Position numbers and translations under genes: made by a program
The notes under the pieces: generated by a model
The model's database searches: none
What the model was told of the DNA's origin: nothing
Seen by the model: only the letters and a program-made list of their open reading frames with translations
Source of the DNA: Pseudomonadota bacterium
GTDB taxonomy: Bacteria; Desulfobacterota; Desulfobulbia; Desulfobulbales; Desulfocapsaceae
DNA: 64,000 nucleotides
Assembly (NCBI GenBank): GCA_018820855.1
Contig: JAHJNL010000086.1
Location: 62,001 to 126,000, forward strand
Direction: 5' to 3'
Shown: positions 43,667 through 51,673 of the stretch, piece after piece
How positions within the stretch are numbered: position 1 is the first letter of the stretch
How the letters are laid out: the number at the start of each line of letters is the position of its first letter

Positions 43667-43800
43667 TGTGGAGCGGAGAAGGGATGTTGTTAACTCTATA
43701 CAGTATTGAAGGAAAGCTGGTAATTCCCCGGTGAACTGCTAACGCGGAGAGTGGGCACAAAAGGGAAAAAGCCAAGGGTTCGTAAAGGGGATGTGGATTG

Positions 43801-46800
43801 ATGGAAATGCAAAGAGATGAACTGGAAAAATCCGTTGCCGAGACGTTAAGCTGGCAGCGTCTTGAATGGGAAGGACATGCGCTCTATGTCCAACCCGATA
43901 TTCCGGACTGGATTGTTGTCTCTGAGGCCAGCGACAGGCTGCTTGGGTATGGAGAAAGGGGGGGTAACAACTTTTATGCCCTGGACCGGCTGGTTGGCGC
44001 TCTGGAGACAGAGCCCATACGTCCCTATCGGGGAAGGGGGGCGGCACTGACCCTGGACCGTCTCAAGGAATGCTGGTTTCATCTTACCGACGCCTGCAAT
44101 CTCAGCTGTCGTCACTGCCTTTTTGCAGCATCCCCTACAAAAACAAGGAGTCTGGAGCCTGAGCTTCTGCAGAATACTGTGGATCAGGCCCTGGCTCTCG
44201 GTTGTCGTCTCTTTTCTTTCACCGGAGGAGAGCCATTTCTCTATCCTGATTTTCTTCCTTTTCTGCACAGGCTGCTGGAGAGGAATCAGGACGTGCATGC
44301 GGCAATTCTGACCAACGGTATGCTGCTGGATCTGCATCTTGATGAGCTTAAGGGGATGAGTCGTCTCCATCTGCAGGTGAGTCTTGACGGGCTGGAGGTT
44401 GCCCATGACAGGCTGCGGGGGCGCGGCAGTTATGGAAAGCTCATGGAAAATCTTCGAGTCCTGCAGAAGGCCGAGATTCCGGTCACCCTTTCGGTGGCGC
44501 TCAGTCGTGAAAATATAGAGGATCTGCCGCAGCTGGTGGACGTGGCTGCAGAAGTCGGGGCCGCAAGTATCCATATCCTTTATCACTTTATTCGGGGGAA
44601 GGGGAGCCGGGAGCAGTTTATCGATTGCGATACCATTTTCCCTCAGTTCCTTGCCGCCTGGCGTCGTGCCGATGAGCTGGGAGTGACCATCGATAATGTC
44701 GATACTCTGCGCAGCCAGGTTTTTTCTACCCCGGGTAGCCGCTATGATCTTTCCAATACCGGCTGGGAATCGCTCGCTGTGGGTCCGGACAATATAATCT
44801 ATCCGTCACCGGCCCTGGTTGGTATGGAGGCATGTGCCTGCGGCAACCTGGATCAGGGGTTGGCAGAGGTCTGGCATACGAGTCAGGTCCTGGAAGGATT
44901 GCGCCGGAGTTCGCTCATCGATTCTCCAGCATATCAGTCCAATCCCCTCAAATTTCTGGTGGGTGGTGGTGATATTGATCACAGTTTTATGCATAGCGGA
45001 CAGTGGGTGGGACATGACCCCTACGTGGAACTCTATAATCGTATTGCTCTCCAGCTCATTGTTGACCAGGCCAACCGCTACAGGAGTGATGAAAACTGCG
45101 CCATCCGGCTGCGTATGGGAGACGTGCGGTATGATTGCCCTGATGAAGAAGGTAGCTCCGATGTGGCCTTGACACACTGCAACTGTTTGATATCGCTGGC
45201 ATCTGATGTTGGACACAGTTCGGTTCGGGAATTTTATGGTCAGGCCGCATTGGCTGCCAATGAGGATATTATCAACCCCCTTGCTCCGGCCCAGGCCGAG
45301 GCGGAATTTATTCCCGGCGAAACCCGTAAGCGTTCCTATGGCTGCGGCAGCCCGGTGACCGATGGCGCCCCTCAAGCGGGCGAGACCCTGGTGGACCTCG
45401 GTTCCGGATCAGGGGTTGAGTGTTTCATGGCTTCATCCTCGGTGGGTCGGAGCGGTAAAGTATACGGTATTGATATGACCGACGAGATGCTGCATCTGGC
45501 CAACGAAACACGCCCCCAAGTGGCGACGCGCCTTGGCTATGCTAATGTGGAATTTCGCAAAGGATTCCTTGAGCAGATCCCCCTGGACAATGGGCTGGCG
45601 GATGTGGTCATCTCCAACTGTGTGATCAACCTCAGTCCTGACAAGCGAATGACCTATCAGGAAATATTTCGTATTCTCAGGCCGGGTGGCAGGTTGGTGG
45701 TGTCAGATATTGTCACTGACGCGGCTATCCCCCCTGGAATCAGAAATAATGTTCGCTATCGTGGTGAATGTCTGGGTGGGGCCATGCAGCAGGAAGAACT
45801 GGTGGCCATGATGGAAGCGGCAGGATTTTGTTCCATTCGTTTTCTCAAACGCTTTCCCTATCGCCAGGTGGAGGGGATGGACTTTTTTTCTCTCACCTAT
45901 CAGGCGCAGCGGCCTGCCGGTTCAGGTAAAGAAGAGGGACAGGCTGACGTGGTCTACAGAGGCCCCTTTGGTGCAGTTTATACTGAATCCGGTATCCTTC
46001 TGGTCAAGGGGAGACGCACCGCTGTCCCCGCGGCAGAGGTCGCTCTGCTGGATGAATCTGTCTTTGTCCTTGATGACAAGGGGGCAGTGACCAATCTGGT
46101 GCTGGAGAACTCCTGCTGTGCTCCGCAGGCCGAAATCGGTCCGGCCCAGAATTGCTGCGATAGTGATGGCTCGGGCTGTTGTGAGGGGGCTGAGGCGTTG
46201 CCGAAGAAAGAACGGAAACGTGAGGGCTGTATGCTCTGCGGCGAACCGCTGCATTATTTTACCGAGTTTCGGGATATGCGCTGCAGCTATTGCGGGCGTC
46301 TCCAGTCAGCCAACGCCTGCTGCGAACAGGATCATTTTGTCTGTGACAGCTGTCACCGGGAAAACGGCATCGAGGTGATCAAAACGATATGCAGCGGTAC
46401 AGAGGAAAAGGATCTTATTGCCCTGCTCGAACTGATTCGCAGCCATCCGGCCATTCCCATGCATGGTCCTGAGCACCATGCCATGATTCCGGGTATCATC
46501 CTGGCCTGTTATCGCAACAGCGGTGGAAAGCTCAAGAGTGAGAGTATTCTTGCCGGAATTGGTCGGGGGGCTGATATCCCCGGTGGGGTTTGCGGCTTCT
46601 GGGGGGTCTGCGGGGCGGCGATTGGCGCAGGGATCGCCGTGTCGACCATACTGGCGGCCACCCCCCTGACTCCGTCATCCAGGCAGACTGCCCAGGCCTG
46701 TAGTGCAGAGATCCTGTCGGCTATTGCTCACTACCGTGGCGGCCGCTGCTGCCAGCGTGAAACCTGGATTGCCCTCACTGAAGCGGCCAGACTTTCAGCC

Positions 46801-46950
46801 GAGATGCTGCCAGTGTCCATGGAGGCAAAAGGAATCCTCCGTTGTCAACAGTATCTGAAAAATCGGGAGTGTATCCGTAAACAGTGCCCCCTTTGGGAAA
46901 ATAGAATAAAAGACCTGCAGTCTGAGCCAAAATTTATCTCTCTGCCCTGA
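43801..46950 (+). CDS. Radical SAM / ArsM-like methyltransferase / DUF5714 fusion protein
   Basis: A 1049-residue multidomain protein. Residues 1-90 form a leading domain that may resemble PqqD-like peptide-recognition modules. Residues about 95-330 are a radical SAM domain with Cys99, Cys103, Cys106 (CNLSCRHC) and GGEP at 142-145, followed by a SPASM-like cysteine region (GMEACACGNL). Residues about 500-720 are a methyltransferase resembling arsenite methyltransferase ArsM: YGCGSPV, VDLGSGSG at 531-538 and NCVINLSPDK near 606. Three Cys-Cys pairs follow (772-773, 785-786, 793-794). From about 810 the C-terminus is a DUF5714-type cysteine-rich domain (GCMLCGEPLHYF, CSYCG, CDSCH). It probably builds or modifies a metalloid- or thiol-containing product; this is inference. 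The ATG at 43801 is used. Confidence 0.85.
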   Translation: MEMQRDELEKSVAETLSWQRLEWEGHALYVQPDIPDWIVVSEASDRLLGYGERGGNNFYALDRLVGALETEPIRPYRGRGAALTLDRLKECWFHLTDACNLSCRHCLFAASPTKTRSLEPELLQNTVDQALALGCRLFSFTGGEPFLYPDFLPFLHRLLERNQDVHAAILTNGMLLDLHLDELKGMSRLHLQVSLDGLEVAHDRLRGRGSYGKLMENLRVLQKAEIPVTLSVALSRENIEDLPQLVDVAAEVGAASIHILYHFIRGKGSREQFIDCDTIFPQFLAAWRRADELGVTIDNVDTLRSQVFSTPGSRYDLSNTGWESLAVGPDNIIYPSPALVGMEACACGNLDQGLAEVWHTSQVLEGLRRSSLIDSPAYQSNPLKFLVGGGDIDHSFMHSGQWVGHDPYVELYNRIALQLIVDQANRYRSDENCAIRLRMGDVRYDCPDEEGSSDVALTHCNCLISLASDVGHSSVREFYGQAALAANEDIINPLAPAQAEAEFIPGETRKRSYGCGSPVTDGAPQAGETLVDLGSGSGVECFMASSSVGRSGKVYGIDMTDEMLHLANETRPQVATRLGYANVEFRKGFLEQIPLDNGLADVVISNCVINLSPDKRMTYQEIFRILRPGGRLVVSDIVTDAAIPPGIRNNVRYRGECLGGAMQQEELVAMMEAAGFCSIRFLKRFPYRQVEGMDFFSLTYQAQRPAGSGKEEGQADVVYRGPFGAVYTESGILLVKGRRTAVPAAEVALLDESVFVLDDKGAVTNLVLENSCCAPQAEIGPAQNCCDSDGSGCCEGAEALPKKERKREGCMLCGEPLHYFTEFRDMRCSYCGRLQSANACCEQDHFVCDSCHRENGIEVIKTICSGTEEKDLIALLELIRSHPAIPMHGPEHHAMIPGIILACYRNSGGKLKSESILAGIGRGADIPGGVCGFWGVCGAAIGAGIAVSTILAATPLTPSSRQTAQACSAEILSAIAHYRGGRCCQRETWIALTEAARLSAEMLPVSMEAKGILRCQQYLKNRECIRKQCPLWENRIKDLQSEPKFISLP

Positions 46951-50865: not shown

Positions 50866-50997
50866 AAGGCTGAAGAACAACGACTAAAGAAAAACTAGTA
50901 AACAGGTTGTTGGTGGAAGAGATGGTAATTTTCGCTTACCATGTTAAAGAGTTTTTTCGGCATTCAACATATACCGCCGTGATTTGAGGAACTAGCT

Positions 50998-51231
50998 TTG
51001 GATATAAAAGAAAAACTGCTCTGCTATTGTTTTTCCCACAGTCGTGCAGATCTAGAGCAGGACATCAATAAAAATGGCAGGTCTGTCATCATGGAAGAGA
51101 TCATCTCTTTTTCCCGTTCCGCAAAGTGCCGCTGCGAGAAGACAAATCCATCGGGCCAATGATGCCTCGCTGATGTGCGCCGGGCGGTGAATGAGATTAT
51201 CAGGTTGCATTGTTTTTCTATAGAACAATAA
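50998..51231 (+). CDS. Probable selenoprotein: [2Fe-2S]-binding BFD/CopZ-like protein with in-frame TGA (Sec55)
   Basis: Reading from TTG 50998 (GAGGA 8 bases upstream) gives 54 residues, a TGA at 51160-51162, then 22 more codons to TAA at 51229. Cysteines 9, 11, 44, 46 and 56 are in CYCF and CRC plus a C-terminal cysteine. The family ends NPSG-x-C-C-L-x-D-V; here it reads NPSGQ-TGA-CLADVRRAVNEIIR, so the TGA sits exactly where the first cysteine of the pair belongs and the frame remains family-like after it. Selenocysteine is the best reading; a Cys-to-stop mutation is the alternative. arsC follows 4 bases after the TAA. Such [2Fe-2S] proteins carry metals or electrons to partners. Confidence 0.68.
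51163..51203 (+). promoter_or_regulatory. Candidate bacterial SECIS hairpin
   Basis: Downstream of the TGA, CTGAT (51170-51174) can pair with ATCAG (51199-51203), and inside, CGCC (51178-51181) with GGTG (51186-51189) around a GGGC apical loop that begins with G, 19 bases after the TGA. These distances fit bacterial SECIS rules, but the stems are short and no folding energy was computed. Confidence 0.4.
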
Positions 51232-51235
51232 TGGC

Positions 51236-51673
51236 ATGACAATGAGTGAAAAGCGAAAAAGAATTCTCTTTCTTTGTACCGGCAATTCCTGTCGCAGTCA
51301 GATGGCAGAGGGTTGGGCCCGGCACCTGCATGGCGACCGAATTGAGGTCTGCTCTGCCGGCATAGAGGTGCATGGCTTGAATCTCATGGCAGTCAGGGCA
51401 ATGCAGGAGGCGGGAGTGGATATCAGTAGGCACTGGTCAAAACATGTAGATGAGTTGCCGGATAAGGATTTTGATCTGGTGATCACTGTCTGCGGGCATG
51501 CTGATGAAAATTGTCCTCTGTTTCCCGGGGCCACCAAGGTCATTCATCACGGTTTTGCTGATCCCCCGCAACTGGCCAAAAACGCAAAAAACGAGGAAGA
51601 AATATTTGCATGCTATCAACAAGTCTGTCTGGAGATACGAGATTTTGTAAAAAGCCTGGGTCCGCTTTGCTAG
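51236..51673 (+). CDS. arsC: Thioredoxin-coupled arsenate reductase ArsC
   Basis: Reduces arsenate to arsenite, fold of low-molecular-weight tyrosine phosphatase. The 145-residue protein has the P-loop LCTGNSCRS (Cys14 and Cys19) and the redox pair Cys86 and Cys93 in VCGHADENC, plus HHGFADPPQ, typical of the thioredoxin-linked type (as Staphylococcus pI258). It is immediately downstream of the probable selenoprotein and is likely in the same transcript. No arsB/acr3 or arsR is in the window. Confidence 0.93.
   Translation: MTMSEKRKRILFLCTGNSCRSQMAEGWARHLHGDRIEVCSAGIEVHGLNLMAVRAMQEAGVDISRHWSKHVDELPDKDFDLVITVCGHADENCPLFPGATKVIHHGFADPPQLAKNAKNEEEIFACYQQVCLEIRDFVKSLGPLC

Follow-up and report, generated by a model that had tools for sequence, protein, structure and literature searches.

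Within the window, the 64,000-nucleotide stretch of DNA analysed here, a small predicted selenoprotein gene lies on the forward strand at 50998..51231. Its reading frame, whose limits the first-pass annotation had placed exactly, opens after a TGA at 50980-50982, offers the TTG at 50998-51000 as its sole start codon, continues through a TGA at 51160-51162 that we read as selenocysteine (Sec), and ends with the TAA at 51229-51231, giving a product of 77 residues plus the stop. A possible ribosome-binding site, GAGGA, is found 7 nt 5' of the start (50986..50990, forward strand); a scan for promoters and terminators returned nothing exceeding shuffles. The product carries the cysteine motifs C9-Y-C11, C44-R-C46 and NPSGQ-U55-C56 in what appears, from homologue comparison, the structure 2HU9 and the NCBIfam model NF047645, to be a CopZ-N-type [2Fe-2S] domain. 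As had been read at the outset, the surroundings of the TGA translate as NPSGQ-U-CLADVRRAV, with Sec in place of the first cysteine of a CC pair, a residue that is Cys in distant homologues. The gene had also been expected to escape standard gene calling, and the mechanical list of open reading frames of at least 60 residues indeed holds no entry for it. Only 4 bases 3' of its stop codon begins an arsC-like gene (51236..51673, forward strand), the immediate neighbour that had been named from the start, which is predicted to encode a thioredoxin-type arsenate reductase: it passes the cut-off of PF01451 with 67.1 bits and, at 142.6 bits, stays under the 174.3 required by TIGR02691. The two genes are probably co-transcribed.

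Homologues were sought in 144 genomes, namely the window's own and 143 relatives. The protein was matched in 72 of them, and 76 of the 79 rows listed, from 70 genomes, carry the TGA in the same column. Of the three rows without a counted TGA, one is the initial part of a gene that is already in the count, and the others are weak, more distant matches (G025 and G108), both of which carry CC. The TGA keeps one and the same place with respect to the neighbouring NP, CxC and C residues in all 76 copies, two of which also contain a second stop (TAA or TAG). In a search of the phylum, 105 of 395 genomes gave a match, with TGA in 57 of the 59 rows of at least 60 bits, seven of these 59 rows coming from genomes already within the 144-genome set; the strong rows lacking it come from G197 and G230, and rows under 60 bits are mixed. 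Cysteines at -9 and +1 relative to Sec are present in 76 of 76 copies, the N-terminal CxC in 74 (it is absent from L089 and L092) and a glycine at -2 in 68. Cys itself occupies the Sec position in L009 and L010, in the frames of L216 and L217, and in all 15 plasmid homologues described below.

Could the TGA simply be a genuine stop, leaving a 54-residue peptide and, beyond it, similarity that is only a relic? TGA does serve as the final stop in several of these same homologues, and the hairpin of the window copy, as described below, is weak. Against this, conserved residues continue past the codon: the Cys immediately after it is invariant (76 of 76) and position +5 is V in 74 copies and I in two. 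No further in-frame stop occurs within 30 nt after the TGA in any of the 76, the other two frames giving 36 and 35, and pN is lower than pS on both sides of it in all six pairs compared. Compensated stem pairs across the 76 copies point the same way. On these comparative data we reject a true stop, which we consider extremely improbable. Comparison shows the UGA at 51160 to lie inside a conserved coding frame. A sequencing error was another candidate; the 76 gene copies with TGA argue against it and we reject it on the comparative data, and the homologues do not stop at this position.

A 2026 review (PMC13188914), in its section on SECIS, models the bacterial element as a stem of 4-16 bp, with an energy no higher than -7.5 kcal/mol, that closes a loop of 3-9 nt; the loop has G in its first two positions and lies 16-37 nt downstream of the UGA. 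In a gapless alignment of the 76 sequences, the family hairpin has a 7-bp stem and a 4-nt loop beginning 19 nt after the TGA, so that loop size, G, spacing and stem length all fit the published model. The loop reads AGGT in 41 copies, GGGT in 17 and otherwise in the rest, with a G within its first two positions in 76 of 76; the loop starting with G that had been proposed 19 nt downstream of the TGA is thus right for the window and has its counterpart throughout the family. Across the alignment 94.5% of the cells of the stem are paired and 42 cells show changes on both sides, values that none of 500 shuffles reached in either case, and slid versions of the stem pair at 33-63%. Two other measures, which count doubly changed pairs and distinct pair types, are not above shuffles (185 and 217 of 500). 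RNAalifold, to which the stem was not supplied, predicted five of its seven pairs, missing the outermost and the innermost. All seven pairs form in 48 of the 76 copies, six in 27 (the window among them) and five in one. Comparison thus shows an RNA hairpin 19 nt 3' of the UGA that is conserved with compensatory changes.

The window's own copy of this apical hairpin (51175..51192, forward strand; arms 51175-51181 and 51186-51192, loop GGGC at 51182-51185) forms six of the seven pairs, with one G-A mismatch, and its core is the weakest of the 76 at -2.8 kcal/mol. Taken alone, the core hairpin reaches -7.5 kcal/mol or lower in 49 of the 76 copies and falls short in 27. A 56-nt stretch of the window folds at -14.5 kcal/mol, and when the window RNA is folded by itself its stability does not exceed that of shuffles (z 0.08 for this stretch; z 0.25). 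The outer stem that had been proposed at 51170..51203 (forward strand; 51170-51174 with 51199-51203) does form in the fold of the window copy. It finds little support in the family, where 44.7% of its cells are paired, a value reached by two of 500 shuffles and lying among those of slid versions (28-49%). A scan against Rfam gave just two matches, both far under their gathering scores.

The genes needed to insert Sec had been suggested as a check, and selA (609.5 bits), selB (367.7), selD (366.6) and tRNA-Sec (73.4) were all found over cut-off in the window genome. As to a genome-wide reassignment of the codon, several homologues themselves end in TGA, and the Sec genes would account for the in-frame one. 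Among the 70 genomes with the TGA form, 61 have a selA match (E up to 1e-40). Seven of the other nine have selB over cut-off, and G019 has a selB-like fragment below it; in G029 neither selA nor selB was matched. The near-complete genomes G008, G024, G031 and G061 have a selB match and no selA match in the part of their sequence that was searched. Many of the draft genomes have selA only a few hundred bases away from the end of a contig (e.g., contig 5 of the window genome, G000), which suggests a repeated element near selA in those drafts. As a separate observation, selD of the window genome (L218, contig 91) holds one in-frame TGA and is therefore probably a selenoprotein gene itself. With the TGA at the same codon in 76 copies from 70 genomes, a conserved stem and the Sec genes in place, the probable selenoprotein of the first-pass annotation stands, and we regard it as almost certain that the UGA of the window gene is translated as Sec.

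The family to which the protein belongs had been given as BFD/CopZ-like. The CopZ part of this label holds. The NCBIfam model NF047645 (CopZ_Nterm_CC) scores 54.3 bits against a cut-off of 100 and covers profile positions 84-137 of 138, NF045877 (CopZ_Nterm_CU) scores 26.3 bits against 190, and a profile of 35 homologues matches A. fulgidus CopZ (2HU9) with E 5e-5. Cys homologues (L010 and the L217 frame) exceed the NF047645 cut-off, at 142.1 and 134.8 bits. For the BFD part, no Pfam family matched the selenoprotein at E up to 1, neither a BFD model nor an HMA domain, and the BFD-like label traces to the name of cd10141 as given in a review table. Of the CopZ N-terminal domain, the protein represents just the C-terminal [2Fe-2S] half, standing alone, and it very likely has the CopZ-type [2Fe-2S] fold; the structure model is poor (pLDDT 57.2, pTM 0.41).

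The alignment with 2HU9 places Cys75 at C9, Cys77 at C11, Cys109 at C46, Cys118 at U55 and Cys119 at C56. In A. fulgidus CopZ the cluster ligands are reportedly Cys75, Cys77, Cys109 and Cys119, in work of Sazinsky dating from 2007. From this one alignment and that reported ligand set, we infer that C9, C11, C46 and C56 would hold the [2Fe-2S] cluster. By the same reasoning Sec55 would sit at the position of Cys118, beside the ligand Cys119, and would therefore not be a cluster ligand. CopZ also contains a Zn site and an HMA domain. Compared with 2HU9, the window protein lacks the N-terminal half and the copper-binding HMA domain, and has Sec at Cys118 and an extra Cys44, which is invariant in the Sec forms (76 of 76), present in 15 of 15 plasmid Cys forms and faces a gap in 2HU9.

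This selenoprotein family is already catalogued, and the window gene is a further member of it. The tables of two reviews (PMC13188914, PMC9312934) have entries for two selenoproteins, forms 1 and 2, named '(2Fe-2S)-binding protein (copper chaperone Copz family)', of which form 1 is given as cd10141, WP_245779778.1. The motifs stated in the 2026 review are GxUC for form 1 and CU for form 2 (PMC13188914); the window protein, with G-Q-U-C, shares both the motif and the family label of form 1. In the text of the reviews as available, form 1 is a table row, with no function given beyond its name. Its accession occurs, within the open-licence PMC literature as far as its text could be searched, only in these two reviews. 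The reference that the 2026 review cites for form 1 is PMC2398784; CopZ is not mentioned in the main text, as available, of PMC2398784, PMC8318568, PMC5029168 or PMC12013277, a text search of PMC7558416 matched only reference-list entries, and no mention of a Sec-containing CopZ was found in the available text of PMC2147054. Nor did the open-licence PMC literature, at the same depth, yield a paper linking a Sec-containing CopZ-like protein to arsenic.

Two of the protein models are close points of comparison. NF047645, a putative iron-sulfur cluster-binding metallochaperone, shares its domain at positions 84-137 with the window protein, which differs in lacking the N-terminal half, in scoring below the cut-off and in having Sec for the first Cys of the CC pair. 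NF045877, the Csac_0668 family (seleno)protein or form 2, has the same domain and, by its catalogue entry, also places Sec in the pair, but as the second residue (C-U), whereas in the window protein Sec is the first (U-C).

To see what surrounds the family, we clustered the neighbouring frames of 96 loci: 75 fetched loci, 20 phylum loci (taken from the 59 strong phylum rows, and including two Cys forms) and the window. One representative per cluster was compared with NCBIfam to check the names: those for ArsR, thioredoxin and Acr3 scored over cut-off and those for the permease and the CcdA/DsbD-like protein below it, while the ArsC and ArsM clusters include the window's own genes, ArsM scoring below its cut-off. 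Within 6 kb, ArsR is found at 21 of the 96 loci, a SaoE/SO_0444-like permease at 20, ArsC at 19, an ArsE-type thioredoxin at 15, Acr3 at 12, a CcdA/DsbD-like gene at seven and ArsM at five. At least one of ArsR, permease, ArsC, thioredoxin, Acr3 and ArsM lies within 6 kb at 29 loci and within 2.5 kb at 26; the other 67 have no arsenic-type gene within 6 kb, partly owing to contig ends. A different set of genes recurs elsewhere, with TauE at 14 loci, MFS at 10 and CrcB at 13, all named by eye and the TauE cluster having no NCBIfam match. At L156, L158, L162 and similar loci, mostly of one genus (g5), genes for a TauE-type permease, an MFS transporter and a CrcB-like protein take the place of arsenic genes after the selenoprotein gene. 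In the window itself, about 4 kb upstream of the selenoprotein gene, a 1050-residue open frame (43798-46950, forward strand) combines radical SAM, an ArsM-like methyltransferase (NF008823, 220.6 of 263 bits) and DUF5714; the DUF5714 stretch also matches MbdU, a double-selenoprotein model, at 140 bits, below the cut-off.

The first-pass annotation had tied the gene to arsC. This link recurs, though at a minority of loci. ArsC is single-copy in 105 of the 110 genomes with a match, and 14 of the 62 genomes having both have it no farther than about 4 kb from the selenoprotein gene, where 0.17 would be expected by chance if kinship is disregarded and one arsC per genome, an 8-kb target and 3-Mb genomes are assumed; given kinship, these 14 genomes do not represent 14 independent events.

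The Cys forms on plasmids broaden this picture. We inspected 3-5 kb on each side in all 15 plasmid records with a match, two of which share the same protein accessions and seven of which are from Deinococcus. All 15 homologues carry CC, and all have a CxC corresponding to C44/C46. Twelve are near a mer gene, a metal transporter gene or a metal-named regulator, for example in the orders MerR-MerT-cation transporter-homologue, MerF-homologue (preceded by a heavy metal-responsive regulator) and, in two records, MerR-homologue-MerB; one match falls within a gene annotated merA. The remaining three have a MerR-family regulator alone nearby, which is weak evidence because regulators of this family need not sense metals. 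In G197 (L216:2531-4657, reverse strand) the Cys form is followed by the mercuric reductase MerA (568 bits) in one open frame. Comparison of these loci shows arsenic genes beside part of the selenoprotein family and metal genes beside its Cys relatives.

One way to read this distribution is that the arsC link is shared by descent within a few lineages and has no functional meaning, the protein acting on some other metal, for instance copper. The 67 loci without arsenic-type genes would suit such a reading, as would two plasmid homologues that follow an ArsR-type regulator and a heavy-metal ATPase gene (ArsR-ATPase-homologue). We consider it rather unlikely: the association spans seven genera in three families, arsC lies upstream, downstream or on the other strand in different loci, and mer genes stand near several of the plasmid homologues.

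Taking these lines together, there is a strong likelihood that the window gene encodes a stand-alone CopZ-N-type [2Fe-2S] selenoprotein, made together with arsC. A role in detoxifying soft metals or metalloids in general is, in our judgement, probable. In mechanistic terms, binding of the cluster by C9, C11, C46 and C56 would leave an Se/S pair free, made up of C44 and the U55 selenol. This pair could bind or reduce a soft metal(loid), with As(III) the likeliest candidate; the metal(loid), or electrons, would then be passed on to the efflux or reductase proteins encoded alongside. A metal relay is our best guess for its role; whether As(III) is bound and relayed, rather than the role being purely a redox one, strikes us as evenly balanced.

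The main competitor accepts that Sec is real and gives the protein a mainly redox role: the cluster and Cys44/Sec55 would relay electrons for recycling ArsC, or a thioredoxin-like partner, and would carry no metal. We give it less than an even chance. The recurrence nearby of thioredoxin-like (ArsE family) and CcdA/DsbD-like genes agrees with it, as do a plasmid Cys homologue that shares a run of genes with CcdA, TlpA and lpdA and two others directly 5' of a gene annotated lpdA. On the other hand, most loci have no ArsC nearby, and Cys homologues also adjoin merT, merF, merB and metal ATPase genes, a setting that a metal relay fits better.

The most specific form of the metal relay is one that we put forward only tentatively and hold to be somewhat doubtful: a selenium-based arsenite relay, in which a minimal [2Fe-2S] domain has Sec at a non-ligand position adjoining the cluster, and the Cys44/Sec site, tuned by the cluster, captures As(III). 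The Cys relatives of mer operons would capture Hg(II) instead, and the cargo would go to efflux or reductase partners. Its nearest analogue is ArsD, an arsenite metallochaperone and small thiol protein that hands As(III) to efflux and is not known to have an iron-sulfur cluster or Sec; the likeness concerns the proposed role alone.

Our study adds to a catalogued family the covariation of its SECIS element, its breadth within the order and the phylum, the stand-alone half-domain form, the proposal of Sec as a non-ligand and the arsenic and mercury gene context. Since the protein has no Pfam match and both its NCBIfam scores lie under their cut-offs, ordinary annotation would probably drop or shorten the gene, yet the TGA form is present in 70 of the 144 genomes searched. 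The alignment with 2HU9 yields a testable proposal for the role of Sec, and the gene context links the family to arsenic and mercury handling. If the arsenite relay were true, these proteins would represent a distinct, selenium-dependent branch of arsenic resistance.
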